Origin: Bacteroidia bacterium
GTDB lineage: Bacteria > Bacteroidota > Bacteroidia > J057
Reading direction: 5' to 3'
NCBI GenBank assembly: GCA_030430205.1
Contig: JAUIGE010000009.1
Span: forward strand, 1 to 64,000
DNA length: 64,000 bases
Shown one piece after another: positions 13,029 to 56,373 of the stretch; within the stretch, counting starts at the first letter, position 1; the number at the start of each line of letters is the position of its first letter. A program made the position numbers and the translations under genes. The notes under the pieces are model-generated. The model saw nothing but the letters and a program-made list of their open reading frames with translations, did not search any database and was not told the origin of the DNA.

Positions 13029-14273
13029 ATGAAGATATCCAAAATTCTTATAGGGGGAGCCATTGTGGTGGCCATAGCTCTAGGCATCGCCTGGTTTACC
13101 AGCAATCCTCAGGAAGACAGCACAGACATTTTTGTAACAGCCACAGAAGGCGACTTTCAGGTAGTCGTAACCACTTCTGGAGAACTGCGTGCCAAGAACT
13201 CAACCGAGATACTGGGTCCCAGGAGGATACGGGATGTCGGCATCCGCCAGGTTCAGATCAATTGGTTGATTCCTGAAGGAACTGTGGTAAAAGAAGGCGA
13301 ACTCGTAGCACGCCTCGACCAAAGCGAATTGCTTACCAAAATTCAGGACGTTAAAATCTCCCTGGAGACATCACAATCGGAGCTGACTTCAACCAAATTG
13401 GACACCGCTCTTTCCCTTTCCAAAGCCAGAAACAATATCATCAACCTCAATTATGATATGGAAGAGCGAAAGGCGGAGATGGAACAGTCAAAATATGAAG
13501 CCCCTGCGACCCAGCAAAAGGCAAAAATAGCGTACCAAAAAGCAGAAAGAACCTACGAGCAGGCAAAAGCCAATTATGAAAAAGAAGAAGCCCAGGCCCG
13601 CGCTCAGGTACGCACCAAGCAACTGGAACTCAATAAAGCTCAAAATCAACTCAATGAATACCTCTCTCTTCAGGATCAGTTTACGGTGACAGCTCCGGCA
13701 GATGGCATGGTCATTTATGACAGGGAATGGGATGGTCGAAAAATAGCTACCGGCTCCAGTATCGGTGCCTGGAACCCTGTCGTGGCAACCCTGCCAGACC
13801 TCACAGAGATGGAGTCCATCACCTATGTCAATGAAATTGACATACAAAAAGTAGCAAAAGACCAGGAGGTTATTATCGGCCTGGATGCAGTTGCAGGCAA
13901 AGAATTGAATGGAAAAATCGTCTCAGTAGCCAATATAGGCGAAAAACGCCCCAACTCTGACGCCAAAGTATTTGAGGTAGTTATCAGTGTTTTGCAAAAA
14001 GACACAACCCTGAGACCTGCCATGACGACCAGCAACCAGATTATTATTTCGCAGAAAAAAAGCGCCCTTTCTATTCCTCTCGAATGCCTGCATACGCAGG
14101 ACAGCAGCAGCTTTGTTTTTATTAAAACCAAGACCAGACCTGTAAAACAACAGGTAGAAACAGGCCTCATCAATGAAAATTTCGCAGAAATAGTACAAGG
14201 CATCAAACCGGAAGATGAACTCTTCCTGACCTTACCCCAGGACACCACAGGCATCCCCCTGCGAGAGCTCTAA
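13029..14273 (+). CDS. HlyD/MacA-type periplasmic efflux adaptor
   Basis: A 414-residue membrane-fusion protein: one N-terminal span (residues 5-24), first half of the biotinyl-lipoyl-like domain (~50-105), a long alpha-helical hairpin rich in A, E, K and Q (~105-215), second half of the lipoyl domain (FTVTAPADGMVIYDREWDGRKI), and beta-barrel/MP domains to the end. It bridges an inner-membrane ABC permease and a TolC-type outer-membrane channel. First gene of a tight three-gene operon; the downstream permease starts 65 bases later. Confidence 0.88.
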   Translation: MKISKILIGGAIVVAIALGIAWFTSNPQEDSTDIFVTATEGDFQVVVTTSGELRAKNSTEILGPRRIRDVGIRQVQINWLIPEGTVVKEGELVARLDQSELLTKIQDVKISLETSQSELTSTKLDTALSLSKARNNIINLNYDMEERKAEMEQSKYEAPATQQKAKIAYQKAERTYEQAKANYEKEEAQARAQVRTKQLELNKAQNQLNEYLSLQDQFTVTAPADGMVIYDREWDGRKIATGSSIGAWNPVVATLPDLTEMESITYVNEIDIQKVAKDQEVIIGLDAVAGKELNGKIVSVANIGEKRPNSDAKVFEVVISVLQKDTTLRPAMTTSNQIIISQKKSALSIPLECLHTQDSSSFVFIKTKTRPVKQQVETGLINENFAEIVQGIKPEDELFLTLPQDTTGIPLREL

Positions 14274-14289
14274 TGGTCTTTTCTCCCAT

Positions 14290-14317
14290 CTCGCTTCTCG
14301 CTTCTCGCTTCCCTTTT
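14290..14317 (+). repeat. Triple CTCGCTT heptad ahead of permease start
   Basis: CTCGCTT is repeated three times exactly (14290-14310), followed by CCCTTTT. It lies between the adaptor stop and the permease ATG at 14339. Period is seven bases, as in the heptads before leuS and the dihydroorotase-like gene, but the unit sequence is different. Confidence 0.7.
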
Positions 14318-17281: not shown

Positions 17282-17668
17282 ATGAACATTTATGTTGGAA
17301 ACATCTCTTTTAATGCATCAGAAGATGATTTGAGAGATGCCTTTGAACAGTATGGAACAGTTGAGACTGTAAAAATCGTACTAGACCGTGATACTGGCCG
17401 CTCAAGAGGCTTTGGATTTGTTGAAATGGCAGATGATGATGCTGGAAGAGAAGCCATCAATGCATTGAATGGTTTTGACCTGGAAGGACGCGAATTGAAA
17501 GTAAACGAGGCTCGTCCTCGTGAACCACGCAGAAATAACTTCGGCGGTGGCGGCGGCGGTGGATACCGTGGCGGCGGCGGCGGTGGTGGCGGTTACCGCG
17601 GTGGCGGTGGCGGCGGCGGTGGTTACCGCGGTGGCGGTGGTGGCGGTGGATACCGCGACGACTACTAA
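17282..17668 (+). CDS. Glycine-rich single-RRM RNA-binding protein
   Basis: A 128-residue protein: RNA recognition motif at residues 1-80 with RNP2 (IYVGNI, 3-8) and RNP1 (RGFGFVEM, 41-48), then a basic linker (RPREPRRNN) and a tail made almost entirely of Gly with regularly spaced Tyr-Arg (GGGGGYRGGG units). This resembles RRM proteins of Bacteroidota and cyanobacteria that bind A/U- or purine-rich RNA; the tail can add low-affinity RNA binding or self-association. Followed by a bidirectional terminator at 17720-17739. Confidence 0.93.
   Translation: MNIYVGNISFNASEDDLRDAFEQYGTVETVKIVLDRDTGRSRGFGFVEMADDDAGREAINALNGFDLEGRELKVNEARPREPRRNNFGGGGGGGYRGGGGGGGGYRGGGGGGGGYRGGGGGGGYRDDY
17540..17659 (+). 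repeat. Glycine-rich tandem repeat coding tract
   Basis: A GGT/GGC-rich tract encodes repeated Gly-Gly-Gly-Tyr-Arg-Gly units of the RRM protein tail. The units (GGTGGATACCGTGGC and variants) are near-identical at DNA level, so unit number may vary among relatives by slippage. Confidence 0.8.
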
Positions 17669-28048: not shown

Positions 28049-28458
28049 AAAACCGAAAAGCTGACAGGGGATTCCCTTTTATTACATCACGTGGGGAGAA
28101 GGCCTGAGGGGAGGATTTTCTTTTTCCTTCCGCCTTCTATATCTTCGAATGCAAAGATAAAATAATCTCTGCTTGTAATTCTCTTGTTCACATATTTTCT
28201 AGCTCTTGTTTTTGTAATTCCACTTAGAAAAAAATTTCAGCCCTTCACAATGGCTCAACCCGCCCATCCCTTTTTCCGTTAAAGGCACTTCTTTCCCTAC
28301 ACATTTTTTACAAAAAGCGAAACCGTCTTTTAGAAAGATTGGTTTCCTTCCCCTTTTACTCCTATTTTCGCAAGCAAATTTTCAGAAATTGCTTCGGGAG
28401 TTCCAGCTTGAACGTGAAACTCGGAACCCGAAACCCGAAACCCGGAACCGTCTTAATT
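28049..28458. other. Divergent intergenic region before leuS
   Basis: No gene is seen in these 410 bases. A weak inverted repeat (GAAACC 28319-28324 ... GGTTTC 28341-28346, with a TCTTT/AAAGA core) sits in the middle. The end is occupied by heptad direct repeats (28416-28450, listed separately). A mix of T-rich and C-rich tracts suggests promoters but none matches the TAnnTTTG element well. Confidence 0.4.
28416..28450 (+). repeat. Five heptad repeats immediately before leuS
   Basis: Five consecutive 7-base units read GAAACTC, GGAACCC, GAAACCC, GAAACCC, GGAACCG, consensus GRAACYS, ending 8 bases before the leuS ATG. The period is exact. A near-identical set lies before the dihydroorotase-like gene at 55075-55102. 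Confidence 0.8.
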
Positions 28459-31401
28459 ATGTACGATTTTCAACAGATCGAGAAAAAATGGCAGCAGTAT
28501 TGGCAAGAGAATAAAACTTTTGCTGCCGAGAAGCTTTCAGAAAAGCCCAAATACTATGTGTTGGATATGTTTCCCTATCCTTCCGGTGCAGGGCTACATG
28601 TAGGCCATCCATTGGGCTATATTGCTACAGATGTGATGACGCGCTACAAGCGCCTGAAAGGTTTCAATGTATTACACCCGATGGGTTTTGACTCCTTTGG
28701 CCTCCCGGCCGAGCAATACGCCCTCCAAACGGGCATACATCCCTCCCAAACAACCGAACAAAATACCGCCCGCTACCGCGAGCAGATGGAGCTATTGGGC
28801 TTGCACTATGACCCGGAATCCTGGTTGCGAACCAGCGATGCTTCCTACTATAAATGGACTCAGTGGATCTTTATCCAATTGTTTGAACATTGGTATGACC
28901 AGCAGGCAGATCAGGTGAAGCCTATCAGTGAACTGGTTGCCCATTTTGAAAAAGATGGAAATGCGAATATTCAGGCGGCCACGGACCAGGAAGAAAACTT
29001 CACTGCTGCCCAATGGAAAAAAATGAGCCCCAGTGCCCAAAGCGATGTGCTGATGAACTACCGCATGGCTTATAATTCCTTTGCTTCGGTCAACTGGTGC
29101 CCGGCTTTGGGGACCGTCCTGGCAAATGACGAGGTGAAAGAAGGCCGCTCAGAGCGTGGCAATCATCCGGTTGAGCGCAAGTTAATGCGCCAGTGGATGC
29201 TACGGATTACCGCTTATGCAGATCGCTTGCTCAGCGATTTGGACGAGCTGGACTGGTCTGATTCCATGAAAGCCATGCAGGCCAACTGGATCGGACGCTC
29301 AGAAGGTGCGCGCATCCGCTATGAGGTGGAAGGGCACACAGGTGAATCCATTGAAGTCTTTACCACAAGACCTGACACCATCTATGGCAATACATTTATG
29401 GTACTGGCTCCCGAACATGAATTGGTAGCCAAAATCACCACCGATGAAAAGCGGGATGCCATTGATACCTATATACAGTGGGCAAAAAACCGCACGGAGC
29501 GCGAGCGGATGGCCGACACCCGCAAGACGGGAGAATTTACCGGTGCCTATGCAGTCCACCCCTTCACCGGGGATTTGCTGCCGATCTGGATCTCCGACTA
29601 TGTCGTGATCACCTATGGCACAGGTGCCATCATGGCCGTACCGGGGCACGACCAGCGCGACTGGGAATTTGCCCACAAATTTGGCTTAAACATTGACGAA
29701 GTCATCTCTGGAGGAGACATTTCCAAGGAAGCCTTTATCTCTAAAGATGGCATTTCCGTCAATTCTGAATTCATGAATGGCATGAAAGCGACGGAAGCCA
29801 TCAAAGCCTGCATCGAAAGGTTGGAAGCCACGAAACTTGGCTTTGGGGAAGTCACTTTCCGCTTACGCGATGTGATCTGGTCCCGCCAGCGGTATTGGGG
29901 AGAACCGACGCCCATCGTCTTCAAAGATGGCGTAGCTTCTGCCATTGACATCGCAGAGTTGCCGCTTAAATTGCCTCATTTGGAGGTATACAAGCCTTCA
30001 GAAAGCGGGGAGCCGCCTTTGGCCCGTGCAGGCGATAGCTGGCGTTACTTGCCAGACGGTAGCGAAAGAGATTTGAATACCATGCCGGGAGCGGCTGGGT
30101 CCAGTTGGTATTTTCTCCGGTATTTTGATGCCGAAAACAATACGGCTTTGGCCGACAGCGCCAAAATTGATTACTGGATGCCTGTCGACTTATATGTCGG
30201 TGGTACCGAGCATGCCGTAGGGCATTTGCTGTATTCACGCTTCTGGACAAAATTTTTGTTTGACCTGGGAGTTTGTTCCGTAAAGGAACCTTTCCAAAAA
30301 CTGGTCAACCAGGGCATGATACAGGGGGTTTCAGAGAAAGTCATGATGTCTACCATTCCGACTACAACGATCCACGGAAAGGATAAGGCCGGCAACTGGC
30401 ATGAACACGACATCTCTCATCGTCCTGTAACGGTATTTGTGAGCCATCATTTGGTGGATACATATCCTGATTTTCAGGAAAATGCCAATCCGCAAGCTCG
30501 CGTAGCAGAGATTCCGATTTATATCAAATACATCAAAGATTATGGCTTGAGCAATCCGTCCTACCTGGATGGAGAAAGCATCGCTCAGGTAAGCGAATGG
30601 CGGCCTGAGTATTCAGAAGCTGTTTTTGTCGCTGAAGGCGGCTACTACCAGAGTGGTATTTTTCACTCCTTCGGAAACGATGGTGGTAAGCAGGTATATA
30701 CCAAAACAGAAGTGGAGAAGATGTCCAAACGTCTTTTCAATGTCGTCAATCCCGACGATGTAATCGCTGATTATGGTACGGATACTTTCCGCATGTTCGA
30801 GATGTTTTTGGGACCATTGGAAATGAGCAAACCCTGGGATACCCAAAGTATCACAGGCGTTTATAAGTTTTTGCGCAAGTTTTGGAGTTTATTTGTTGAC
30901 GAAGAGGGAAAGTGGCTGGTAGTAGATGAAGCGGCTACAGATGAGGAGTTGAAAGAATTGCACAAAGCCATCAGGCAGGTAGAAGATAGCATCGAGCGCT
31001 TGTCCTTCAATACCGCTGTACCTGCCTTCATGGTTTTAACCAACTATATGACCAAAGCTGATTGCCACAAATTGGCAATTTTGGAGCCATTTTTGGTTAT
31101 TCTATCCGCTTTTGCCCCCCATATCTGCGAAGAATTGTGGGAGAAAATGGGCCATCGGCAAAGCATTTTGTTTGCTGAGTTTCCTCAGTGGGAGGAAAAA
31201 TACCTGAAAGAAGACAGCATCGAATACCCTATTCAGGTAAATGGCAAGATGAGGGCGAAAGTTTCGGTTGCGTCGGATGCCTCCAAAGAAGAGGTTGAAA
31301 AGGCCGCACTTGCCGATGAGCGCGTACAGCAATACCTGGGAGGAAAAGCGCCTCGCAGGGTGATCGTGGTACCTGGAAAAATTGTAAACATTGTAGTCTA
31401 A
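28459..31401 (+). CDS. leuS: Leucyl-tRNA synthetase
   Basis: Class I synthetase of 980 residues, charging tRNA-Leu in the cytoplasm. HIGH motif at 47-50 (HVGH within PYPSGAGLHVGHPLGY), editing domain in the middle (GNTFMVLAPEHELV ... TTRPDTIYG), and KMSKS as VEKMSKRLFN near residue 755. It is about 120 residues longer than E. coli LeuRS (860), chiefly from a ~45-residue insert after the HIGH-domain (QADQVKPISELVAHFEKDG...) and an enlarged segment before KMSKS (MSTIPTTTIHGKDKAGNWHEHD ...). These inserts are seen in Bacteroidota enzymes of this family, as far as I know. The ATG at 28459 fits; the frame opens upstream at 28339 through the heptad repeats and is not the start. Confidence 0.97.
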   Translation: MYDFQQIEKKWQQYWQENKTFAAEKLSEKPKYYVLDMFPYPSGAGLHVGHPLGYIATDVMTRYKRLKGFNVLHPMGFDSFGLPAEQYALQTGIHPSQTTEQNTARYREQMELLGLHYDPESWLRTSDASYYKWTQWIFIQLFEHWYDQQADQVKPISELVAHFEKDGNANIQAATDQEENFTAAQWKKMSPSAQSDVLMNYRMAYNSFASVNWCPALGTVLANDEVKEGRSERGNHPVERKLMRQWMLRITAYADRLLSDLDELDWSDSMKAMQANWIGRSEGARIRYEVEGHTGESIEVFTTRPDTIYGNTFMVLAPEHELVAKITTDEKRDAIDTYIQWAKNRTERERMADTRKTGEFTGAYAVHPFTGDLLPIWISDYVVITYGTGAIMAVPGHDQRDWEFAHKFGLNIDEVISGGDISKEAFISKDGISVNSEFMNGMKATEAIKACIERLEATKLGFGEVTFRLRDVIWSRQRYWGEPTPIVFKDGVASAIDIAELPLKLPHLEVYKPSESGEPPLARAGDSWRYLPDGSERDLNTMPGAAGSSWYFLRYFDAENNTALADSAKIDYWMPVDLYVGGTEHAVGHLLYSRFWTKFLFDLGVCSVKEPFQKLVNQGMIQGVSEKVMMSTIPTTTIHGKDKAGNWHEHDISHRPVTVFVSHHLVDTYPDFQENANPQARVAEIPIYIKYIKDYGLSNPSYLDGESIAQVSEWRPEYSEAVFVAEGGYYQSGIFHSFGNDGGKQVYTKTEVEKMSKRLFNVVNPDDVIADYGTDTFRMFEMFLGPLEMSKPWDTQSITGVYKFLRKFWSLFVDEEGKWLVVDEAATDEELKELHKAIRQVEDSIERLSFNTAVPAFMVLTNYMTKADCHKLAILEPFLVILSAFAPHICEELWEKMGHRQSILFAEFPQWEEKYLKEDSIEYPIQVNGKMRAKVSVASDASKEEVEKAALADERVQQYLGGKAPRRVIVVPGKIVNIVV

Positions 31402-52976: not shown

Positions 52977-55037
52977 ATGACCTTTTTGAATCCCGCCATG
53001 TTTTGGGGCTTGACAGCTCTAGCTGTTCCAATCATTATTCACTTCTTTAATTTACAGCGTCCGAGGCAGATCCTCTTTAGCAATGTCGCTTTTGTCAAAG
53101 AGGTAAAAAAATCCATAGTAAGGCGTTTGCGGTTCCGCAAATGGTTGCTGCTGCTGCTGCGGCTTGCAGCCATCAGCTGTTTGGTTTTGGCTTTTGCCAA
53201 TCCGCTTATCACCTCCAACAGCAAGACCTGGATGCTGGGCAACCGCTCGCTGGCTATCGTCATTGACGATTCCTATAGCATGCAGGCAGGCAATGAAAAA
53301 GGGCCCTACTTCCAGCAAGCGAAAAAACTTTCGCAGGAAATCGTCAATACCTACGGTCAGCAGGATGAATTTCTCCTGATGCCCCTCAGCAGCATTCAGC
53401 TAAACGCCAACTTTGGCGACCAGCCAAGCGCCTTGCAGGACATCAAAGAGATGTCCATCGAGCAGGGCATACATGCCCACAGTGAGTTGCTTTCTTTTCG
53501 CAAGGAGATTTTTGCCAATGCCCAAAATACCGTCCAGGAGCTCTATTTCCTGAGCGATTTTCAGCGCTCCACGGTCATGGCTGACAGCGTACGGGTACAA
53601 TTGCTCGACACTTCTACCCTTGTCAAATACCTGCCTCTTGCCACCCGTGAGCAAAGCAACGTCTATGTCTCAGGCCAAAAAATCCTTTCTCAAATCATCG
53701 AAAAAGGAAAGCCTATCCAGCTCAAAATGACCCTTGTCAATGATGGCAACAAAAAGGTGAATGAACTGGGAGTCAGGGTTTTGCTAAATGACAAAGTTGT
53801 AGCCATTGCCAACCAGAGCCTGGAACCCAATACTTCCCTGGAATTGGAGATGAGCTTCACCCCAACTGAAAGCGGATGGCTCTCCGGGCATATCGAGCTC
53901 GACGACTATCCCATAGAATTTGACAACAAAAGGTACTTTTCCCTCTATGTACCAGAATCCGAAAAGGTACTGCTGGTGGAAGGCCAAAAATCCCGCAACC
54001 TGCATGTGCTTTATGCTGAGCTTTTTCAGCAGTTTGAAACCCAAATCATCAGCGAGCGCAATATCTCCAGCGTTCAGTTGAATGATTACAGGACGGTTGT
54101 ACTATTGGGGGTAAAGGAATTTTCCTCCGGCCTTGCGGATAAATTGACCCTTTTTCTGAATGAAGGCGGCAGCATCATGTTTTTTCCCGCTGACGAAATG
54201 AATCTCAGTGGTGCCAATGCCTTCTTCAACAACAGCGGCATAGGCAATTTGCAGGCACTGACAAGCGTGCAGGAAGGCATGAAGGCGCGTCTGGCAGAAT
54301 TGAACCATCCGCTTTTCGATGGCATTTTCACCAACGAGCGCAACAACCGCGAGTTTGACGCACCCAATGTGTACAAATACCATCCCATCAAGGTCAATAA
54401 CAACTCCATCCAGAATGAGATCATCAAAATGGAAAATGGCGATATTTTCCTGCTTGAATCCAAAATTGGAGACGGAATGATCTACACTTTTAGCGTGTTT
54501 CCCGGTGATTCCTGGACAGATTTTCATGTGAAAACCGTTTTTGCCCCTATCATTCTGCGTGCAACTCAAATCATGAGCCAGACGCAAAAACAGCAAATAG
54601 GACAGGAAATAGGCTATTTCCAGCCACACAGCCTGCGCACCTCCAGTCAAAACCAAATCCAAATGGTCGCCCAGGATGGCTTCAGCCTGATACCTGAACA
54701 GTATGTGCAGGGCGGCTCAACGATACTCAATTTTGAGAAGCTTGCCTTGAAAGAAGGCAATTACCGCATCATGCAGGGAGATTCCCTGCTGGAAATCATC
54801 TCCTTCAATATTTCCGATTACGAATCGAAACTGGACTTTATCGGAGTCGATCTTCTCCGCAAGCAACTCAATCAGGCCGGATATGAAGGGATTCAACTGC
54901 TGGAAGCCGATCCGGAAGATATCCGCCAGCGTGTTCAAATTGAAAAACAAGGCTTACCTTTGTGGAAATATTTTATCGTTTTTGCGCTCGTTTTTCTCCT
55001 TGCTGAGATTTTGATGCTTCGATTTGGAAAACAATAG
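52977..55037 (+). CDS. BatA/VWA-domain membrane protein
   Basis: A 686-residue protein. N-terminal BatA domain (1-78; MTFLNPAMFWGLTALAVPIIIHFFNLQRPR and a second span at ~58-76). A von Willebrand A-like region follows with MIDAS sequence DDSYS (97-101). A long central domain of beta strands and helices (~190-660) and a last membrane span (~663-684) complete it. BatA-type proteins occur in Bacteroides aerotolerance operons and alongside MoxR-type ATPases; no such partners lie here. It is the first gene of a run on the plus strand that includes the dihydroorotase-like and lipid A genes, but the gap before the next gene is 85 bases. Confidence 0.8.
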   Translation: MTFLNPAMFWGLTALAVPIIIHFFNLQRPRQILFSNVAFVKEVKKSIVRRLRFRKWLLLLLRLAAISCLVLAFANPLITSNSKTWMLGNRSLAIVIDDSYSMQAGNEKGPYFQQAKKLSQEIVNTYGQQDEFLLMPLSSIQLNANFGDQPSALQDIKEMSIEQGIHAHSELLSFRKEIFANAQNTVQELYFLSDFQRSTVMADSVRVQLLDTSTLVKYLPLATREQSNVYVSGQKILSQIIEKGKPIQLKMTLVNDGNKKVNELGVRVLLNDKVVAIANQSLEPNTSLELEMSFTPTESGWLSGHIELDDYPIEFDNKRYFSLYVPESEKVLLVEGQKSRNLHVLYAELFQQFETQIISERNISSVQLNDYRTVVLLGVKEFSSGLADKLTLFLNEGGSIMFFPADEMNLSGANAFFNNSGIGNLQALTSVQEGMKARLAELNHPLFDGIFTNERNNREFDAPNVYKYHPIKVNNNSIQNEIIKMENGDIFLLESKIGDGMIYTFSVFPGDSWTDFHVKTVFAPIILRATQIMSQTQKQQIGQEIGYFQPHSLRTSSQNQIQMVAQDGFSLIPEQYVQGGSTILNFEKLALKEGNYRIMQGDSLLEIISFNISDYESKLDFIGVDLLRKQLNQAGYEGIQLLEADPEDIRQRVQIEKQGLPLWKYFIVFALVFLLAEILMLRFGKQ

Positions 55038-55074
55038 AGGTTAATTGGCAGTCGGTAGTTTTCAGTAAACAGCA

Positions 55075-55102
55075 AAAACCCGAAACTCAAAACCCAAAAC
55101 TC
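55075..55102 (+). repeat. Heptad repeats before dihydroorotase-like gene
   Basis: Units AAAACCC, GAAACTC, AAAACCC, AAAACTC (consensus RAAACYC) lie 20 bases before the ATG at 55123. Period and consensus match the heptads before leuS (28416-28450). Confidence 0.8.
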
Positions 55103-55122
55103 AAAAAGTGTGAACCTTCTTT

Positions 55123-56373
55123 ATGCTGATACAAGGTGTAAAAATAATTGACCCGGAAAGTGCGTTTCACGCCCAAATCTGCGATTTGTTGATTGAAAAT
55201 GGGATAATTAGTGCGATAGGGAAGCCTGGCAGTTTGGCTGCTGATAAGGAAGAAGTTATTTCAGAAGAAGGGCTTCATGTTTCTCCTGCCTGGGTAGACA
55301 GCGGCGTAGTGCTGGCAGATCCCGGTTTTGAGCACAAAGAAAAGCTTGCTGCTTTGGCTAAAGCCGCCGCCTTCGGCGGTTTTGGTCGGGTAATTTGTTA
55401 CCCCAATACGGATCCCGTGATCGATCATGCCCAAATGATCCACGCCCTTCAGCAAAGAAGCAAGCCCCTACCGATCCATTTTCACTTTCTGGGAACCATC
55501 AGCAAAGGAGCCAAAGGCAAAGAGCTCGCCGAAGCCTATGACATGCAGCAGGCAGGTGCACTGGGTTTTTCTGACGGATTGCATCCCTTGCAATCTTCTG
55601 GCCTGATGCTCAGGGCTTTGCAATACTACCAGGCCTTCGAAGGCCTCCTGCTCAGCTACCCCGATGAGGAAAGCCTCAGCCATGGTGGCCAGATGAATGA
55701 AAGTGCACAAAGCGTCAAACTGGGCCTGAAGGGCATAGCCGAAATCGCCGAATCTTCCCGGATGGCAGAATTTCTGCAAATGCTGGACTATGCCGGCGGT
55801 CGGCTGCATGTGCAGCCGGTCAGTTCACCCCTGGCGCTGAACCTTATTCAGCAATTTCACTCGCCGGAGGCGAGTCTGACGGTCGGGGGCTCCATCGCCC
55901 ACCTCTGCTTTGACGACAGTGTTCTGTCGGAATTTGACGAAAATTTTAAGCTTTTCCCGCCCTTGCGGGATGCCTCCCAACTCAAAGCCTTGCAAAAAGG
56001 CTTGCAGGACGGTCTGTACGATCTCCTTTTCAGCGGACATTACGCACAGAGTCTGGAAGAAAAGCAATTGGAATTTGCCAGGGCTGAGCCAGGCATGTTG
56101 ATGCTGCAAACAGCTTTTTCAATTGCTAATAAGCATTTAGTGAAAAGCGGAATCATTTCTCTCGATACATTGATACATTTGCTCAGCCACGGCCCCCGAA
56201 AGGTTTTTGGGCTACCATCCTGTAGCATCGCTGTGGGCCAAAAAGCTGAGTTAACGCTGTTCCAGCCTGAAGCAAAATGGACATTTAGCAGAAATCATCT
56301 TTTTTCTCCTGCTCAAAACTCTCCATTTTTGGGGCAAGAGCTTGAAGGAAAAGTGCTTAGGGTGATTTGTTAA
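55123..56373 (+). CDS. Dihydroorotase homologue lacking metal ligands (probably inactive)
   Basis: A 416-residue amidohydrolase-fold protein. The alignment pattern of dihydroorotase is intact (GFEHKEKLAALAKAAAFGGFGRVICYPNTDPVID ... DEESLSHGGQMNES ... FGLPSCSIAVGQKAELTLF), but the zinc ligands are not. DxHxH of the first strand is D59-S-G-V-V, so both His are lost. The HAED segment reads SYPDE, and the catalytic Asp position reads FSGHYAQS instead of SDH. It cannot be a normal dihydroorotase. Non-catalytic dihydroorotase-like proteins are known to scaffold aspartate transcarbamoylase in some bacteria; here that is an inference. It is followed by lpxD, 21 bases away. Confidence 0.88.
   Translation: MLIQGVKIIDPESAFHAQICDLLIENGIISAIGKPGSLAADKEEVISEEGLHVSPAWVDSGVVLADPGFEHKEKLAALAKAAAFGGFGRVICYPNTDPVIDHAQMIHALQQRSKPLPIHFHFLGTISKGAKGKELAEAYDMQQAGALGFSDGLHPLQSSGLMLRALQYYQAFEGLLLSYPDEESLSHGGQMNESAQSVKLGLKGIAEIAESSRMAEFLQMLDYAGGRLHVQPVSSPLALNLIQQFHSPEASLTVGGSIAHLCFDDSVLSEFDENFKLFPPLRDASQLKALQKGLQDGLYDLLFSGHYAQSLEEKQLEFARAEPGMLMLQTAFSIANKHLVKSGIISLDTLIHLLSHGPRKVFGLPSCSIAVGQKAELTLFQPEAKWTFSRNHLFSPAQNSPFLGQELEGKVLRVIC

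Follow-up and report, generated by a model that had tools for sequence, protein, structure and literature searches.

Heptamer repeats occur in several bacterial phyla and are without an accepted cause. In cyanobacteria, STRR are heptanucleotide repeats of the same class as the long simple sequence repeats (LSSR). Among the latter, according to the summary of Mrazek 2007 given in PMC4679880, heptanucleotides dominate and occurrence across species is sporadic. Heptamer repeats with the units GGGNATC and GGGGAYT, in which some positions are variable, were described from Xanthomonas and Nostoc by Rehm (2015; PMC4692102), with the G-strand oriented in sense close to stops but in antisense close to starts (within 50 bp), with frequent convergent inverted pairs, and with 83% of the arrays common to two Xanthomonas species; the formation of G-quadruplexes by the heptamers was proposed in the same study. 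Direct repeats of TAACTGA, situated before start codons, were reported from Beggiatoaceae, cyanobacteria and some Bacteroidetes by MacGregor (2015; PMC4679880). These are patchy over phyla and consist of one nearly uniform unit, related heptamers being rare, and translational or phase-variation control was proposed for the arrays in Beggiatoaceae.

The arrays dealt with here, from a Bacteroidota genome of 7.2 Mb, very probably belong to this known kind (STRR/LSSR, GGGNATC, TAACTGA) and are a new addition to it. With at least four families in one genome, sequence-specific explanations can be compared side by side. The window, i.e. the whole stretch of 64,000 nucleotides that was analysed, contains the following features:

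14281..14311, minus strand: heptad array of another family, GAGAAGC (TTCTCGC), just beyond the stop codon of gene 13029-14273
28416..28450, plus strand: RAAACYC heptad array of five units, C-rich strand in the leuS sense
28459..31401, plus strand: leuS (leucyl-tRNA synthetase), start MYDFQQIEKKWQQYW, ATG 8 nt past the array; relatives retrieved
52977..55037, plus strand: gene 5' of the second array
55047..55074, plus strand: four G-rich CAGT-type heptads (GGCAGTC, GGTAGTT, TTCAGTA, AACAGCA), read directly from the sequence
55075..55106, plus strand: second RAAACYC heptad array, four full units and one partial, from the sequence
55123..56373, plus strand: dihydroorotase-like gene, 3' of the second array; the name is that of the initial annotation and not from a family scan

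The first array (28416-28450) reads GAAACTC, GGAACCC, GAAACCC, GAAACCC, GGAACCG, and the full units of the second (55075-55102) read AAAACCC, GAAACTC, AAAACCC, AAAACTC; that they lie 8 and 20 nt, respectively, before the ATGs of leuS and of the dihydroorotase-like gene (55123), as the initial annotation had it, is confirmed by the sequence. Their TRF scores are 47 and 57, and within the window mismatch-free adjacent RRAACYS pairs are confined to these two arrays. The CAGT-type heptads at 55047-55074 precede the second array in perfect register, the 85-nt gap before the dihydroorotase-like gene being largely made up of heptads, and the whole of 55047-55106 is G-rich on the left and C-rich on the right, the order also seen in other gaps. 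Both window arrays obey the genome-wide polarity rule described below (C-sense at starts). Elsewhere in the window, CGG-rich tandem repeats of 27-33 bp (17542-17657) lie inside a short ORF (17282-17668), and probably encode a glycine-rich protein tail.

Three consecutive RRAACYS heptads are found at 604 + 624 places in the genome (overlapping places counted), as against 46 + 36 for the reversed control pattern, a figure that is itself inflated in that AAAACCC arrays match the control pattern in another register. It follows from this excess that the arrays at leuS and at the dihydroorotase-like gene are not due to chance. A scan for at least three consecutive heptads had been suggested with enrichment before start codons in mind; such runs are indeed abundant, but more arrays lie at stops than at starts. 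Besides RAAACYC the genome contains the families RRCAGTN, GAGANNA, GRGARGC and TAATGGA, and families are sometimes joined within one array or gap to give composites, at whose junctions some arrays keep register while others are offset by 2 nt.

Positional statistics were taken from 857 kb of stretches (12% of the genome), part of which had been picked at known array positions, while period counts come only from the 564 kb picked regardless of arrays. In these 564 kb, 31 of the 40 tandem arrays of at least 3.5 copies have a period of 7, 14 or 21, and there are about 50 arrays, from which a genome total of the order of 600 may be estimated by extrapolation. Genes were called by a simple home-made ORF script, starts from which may err by tens of bases. 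In sequence of which 87% of bases are coding, 87 of 107 arrays lie in gaps, 16 in called genes (for some of which the gene start or end looks misplaced) and four at edges. Co-directional, convergent and divergent gaps all carry arrays, and of those touching one gene end 37 are at a stop and 16 at a start, which tells against the tie to start codons that had been proposed. If the length of the array is subtracted from that of the gap, what remains is an ordinary gap length (53 versus 75 for array-free gaps in the co-directional case, 42 versus 42 in the convergent case), so that the arrays look like added DNA.

The unit had been described as degenerate but with its phase kept, and this is borne out: the core is nearly invariant and the spacer free, and no phase jumps of 1-3 nt were found between intact runs of the same family. 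Core and spacer were compared in internal units having two intact units on each side, their own sequence being unrestricted, with spacer counts referring to the main spacer positions. On this basis core and spacer changes number 1/540 and 75/270 (28%) in the AAC family, 2/272 and 92/204 (45%) in the CAGT family, and 3/352 and 95/264 (36%) in the GAGA family, the contrast having P below 1e-35 in each and being unchanged when each array is counted once. Pooled, there are six core breaks per about 1,160 core positions, for a core length of 3-5 bases; core variation is thus about 0.2-0.9%, as against 28-45% for the spacer. In the RAAACYC unit positions 3 and 5 are 100% invariant, while position 6 is C in 77%. 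Identical spacers occur in runs and alternations, as expected from unit duplication. Arrays of all families tend to start and finish with the core, and 41 of 52 RAAACYC arrays of at least three units end exactly after RRAAC (about 29% being expected for random ends), the base that follows being evenly distributed. In distant genomes a hand count gave eight of 15 arrays of at least four units ending after RRAAC (shorter ones being biased by the search pattern), which is suggestive of the same rule. With a core that stays fixed and a spacer that varies, the arrays are not plain copying slips. The earlier suggestion that the kept phase points to selection on spacing was right to the extent that the pattern is not neutral, selection itself being one of the rival readings considered below.

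Of 21 pairs of arrays sharing one gap, 20 have the G-rich member on the left and the C-rich one on the right, and none has the reverse order (0/21); the rule applies to gaps of all three kinds (convergent, divergent, co-directional) and to arms of different families as well. Among arrays within 15 nt of one gene end, those at stops are mostly G-sense (32:5) and those at starts mostly C-sense (14:2; P = 4.5e-7). In other words, the G-rich strand points inward, away from whichever gene flanks the array. Families lacking a G-tract show polarity and core invariance too.

The heptamers of Rehm share with these arrays the period of 7, the combination of conserved with variable positions and the intergenic dispersal; the orientation rule is also the same, here measured within 15 nt rather than 50 bp, and the convergent inverted pairs have their counterpart in the 20 of 21 G-then-C pairs. 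However, the units are different ones, at least four core families are present in this one genome, sometimes in composite arrays, and there is no invariant G-tract: within that of RAAACYC the middle G varies, and GAGA and AATGGA have none. The present arrays are also absent at the orthologues tested, in contrast to the 83% sharing in Xanthomonas, although the Xanthomonas pair are much closer relatives. The TAACTGA arrays resemble the present ones in being same-orientation heptamers before starts and patchy in distant genomes, and the complement of TAACTGA contains the CAGT core of RRCAGTN; here, however, spacers are degenerate and many arrays lie at stop codons and between convergent genes, while the CAGT family has NN spacers between GCAGT units, so that the core matches but the unit differs. 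With the LSSR/STRR class there is agreement in the excess of tandem 7-nt repeats over other periods (31/40) and in the dispersed, intergenic placement (87/107); the core/spacer contrast and the fixed ends of the present arrays find no mention in the summary of that class in PMC4679880.

Among the leuS upstreams of 80 relatives none has RAAACYC-type heptads (one has an unrelated period-7 array), and the dihydroorotase upstreams of four relatives are likewise without heptads (0/4). In G003, G005 and G007 an apparently homologous protein end (cf. 52977..55037) precedes the dihydroorotase-like gene, and by-eye comparison shows the gap there, ranging from overlapping codons to about 50 nt, to be heptad-free. 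The initial annotation had tied the heptads to these two genes, had proposed to look for conservation of their phase at orthologous genes, and had taken absence from the same genes in close relatives to mean that the position is accidental; absence is what was found, and the arrays are therefore lineage-specific gains and not regulators of leuS or of the dihydroorotase-like gene. The position of arrays before starts would reflect the shortness of gaps and a tolerance of C-sense arrays there and not regulation, and those at leuS and the dihydroorotase-like gene are most likely incidental.

Heptad arrays are also present in a congener (G001), in part with different units (AAAACCC, RRAACYT and others); the core columns are invariant there, and all three skewed pairs show the G-then-C order, a fourth pair being without skew. 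Synteny between the two genomes is broken. Upstream of leuS in the congener (L151), where the window has heptads, there is a long inverted repeat, ccacggattacacagatt ... aaatccgtgtaatctgtggc. Samples of 60 kb from three other genera of the family contain essentially no heptad arrays. CAGT arrays occur at 249 places in the genome under study and at five in one family member, while a search of 20 further genomes of the order found none. Across the phylum, 17 of 395 species have the RAAACYC unit with the same R/Y positions, usually in few copies, and neighbouring arrays in distant species are G-then-C in eight cases and C-then-G in none, with three CC and two GG. In one distant Bacteroidota genome, 20 consecutive RAAACYC heptads (G358:C6:107851-107932, L218), showing the same R/Y variation as those described here, lie a few bases 5' of an ATG.

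The reading preferred here, for and against which the balance is about even, is that the two window arrays belong to a genome-wide population of intergenic heptanucleotide arrays with fast turnover, grown by slip-and-reprime. Counted in its favour are abundance relative to the control pattern, period-7 dominance, gap placement, the ordinary gap length left after subtraction of the array, absence at orthologues, the different units of the congener and the core/spacer contrast, and also the spacer runs, end phase (41/52), polarity (20/21) and orientation at gene ends. The mechanism as such is put forward more tentatively, as one that may well prove wrong: arrays would originate and extend via 7-nt slip-and-reprime during DNA synthesis at gene borders, continuation would require the 3' end to match the core exactly while mismatches in the spacer would be tolerated, and the growing G-rich strand might fold back to give the inverted partner arm. 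Against this, ordinary slippage would reproduce spacer and core with equal fidelity, so that the near-absence of core variation calls for an extra assumption, a hypothetical error-prone synthesis with a core check; slippage of arbitrary seeds does not account for RAAACYC recurring, R/Y positions included, in distant Bacteroidota; and no enzyme for this putative process was found.

Of the same observations, the near-invariant core, the free spacer, the phase unbroken between intact runs and the core at both array ends would also fit an alternative that is unlikely but deserves serious attention, namely that cores are kept at exact 7-nt spacing by selection, as multivalent sites for a nucleoid-associated, RNA-binding or Rho-like protein at gene borders. 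Such a protein would, however, have to deal with at least four unrelated cores in one genome and with many types of gap, convergent ones included; thousands of core bases at hundreds of places would need to be under selection; and the 80 leuS and four dihydroorotase-like loci compared in relatives lack such arrays. Core-checked repriming and selection for cores are nonetheless the candidates that remain, since the polarity and the fixed core, occurring both with and without G-tracts, disfavour plain slippage as the sole process as well as G-quadruplexes as a general cause. That the arrays are just neutral microsatellites, arising through slippage of a polymerase prone to 7-nt steps (the LSSR view), is improbable: period-7 dominance, intergenic placement and lineage specificity would be accounted for, but uniform mutation cannot yield so large a difference between core and spacer, and neither the fixed end phase nor the polarity is predicted. 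Given the core/spacer contrast, plain slippage as the only process is strongly disfavoured.

Control of the downstream gene, whether translational or by phase variation (the initial annotation's slippage-prone leader tuning amounts to this), is a poor prospect. Position alone speaks for it, both window arrays being C-sense and 8-20 nt before an ATG, and unit number could change by slippage; but stops outnumber starts among array positions, convergent gaps carry arrays, orthologous genes have none, and the RNA fold of the two window leaders is no better than that of shuffles (z -0.02 and 0.38). Arms of the same family that pair do fold well as RNA (z -5.5 to -8.4). An RNA hairpin as a common function was nevertheless rejected, as neither the two window leaders nor a mixed-family gap folds well.

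It would be a surprise, too, if the arrays were the product of a dedicated or specific DNA synthesis that adds 7-nt units of fixed core and random spacer to gene-side ends, G-strand first, as a telomere-like activity on chromosomal gaps; were this true, such an activity would be at work in bacteria scattered across the phylum. A more specific form, in which a reverse transcriptase (RT) would copy a short RNA template to extend exposed ends by heptads before two such ends are joined, is very improbable, even though the G-strand runs inward from both sides as in fused telomeres, the phase is fixed at the gene-side border, and arms of different families are joined in one gap. As DRT10 shows, bacterial RTs are able to produce telomerase-like tandem-repeat cDNA, with 9-nt repeats (PMC12632851), but by analogy this speaks only for the existence of such chemistry in bacteria. 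The RTs found in the genome (PF00078) resemble only retron XIII, DGR and CRISPR Cas1-associated types, with the proviso that the 2023 PADLOC library may lack DRT10; no heptad arrays or templates were found beside these RT genes, and the diversity of spacers does not accord with a single template. Ku is absent from the genome, from the congener and from nine distant array-bearing genomes, and Ku-based joining of ends was rejected for the genomes tested.

That the repeats are kept as G-quadruplex-forming structures (the Rehm 2015 model) is barely credible, for while the complement GGGTTTC, four times over, fits G3N4 and the polarity equals that in Xanthomonas and Nostoc, the middle G of the tract is among the most variable positions (position 6, as against positions 3 and 5), and polarity and core invariance still hold for GAGA and AATGGA, which have no G-tract, and for CAGT, where one is only spacer-dependent, so that position-specific conservation disfavours it as a general cause.

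Some minor observations may be added. The RT loci (L171, L172, L173) comprise a retron type XIII-like RT, a diversity-generating retroelement (DGR) beside formylglycine-enzyme-like genes, and a Cas1 adjoining a short RT. Two cyanobacterial plasmids that came up in the RT search contain few heptads, with one weak pair of opposite polarity. Finally, two arrays 4.5 kb apart (L031:6048-6110 and L031:10529-10650) each have an almost identical promoter-like sequence, gggttttgtttaccttttttc, after them; the pair is a small duplicated gap, and could show how arrays diverge.
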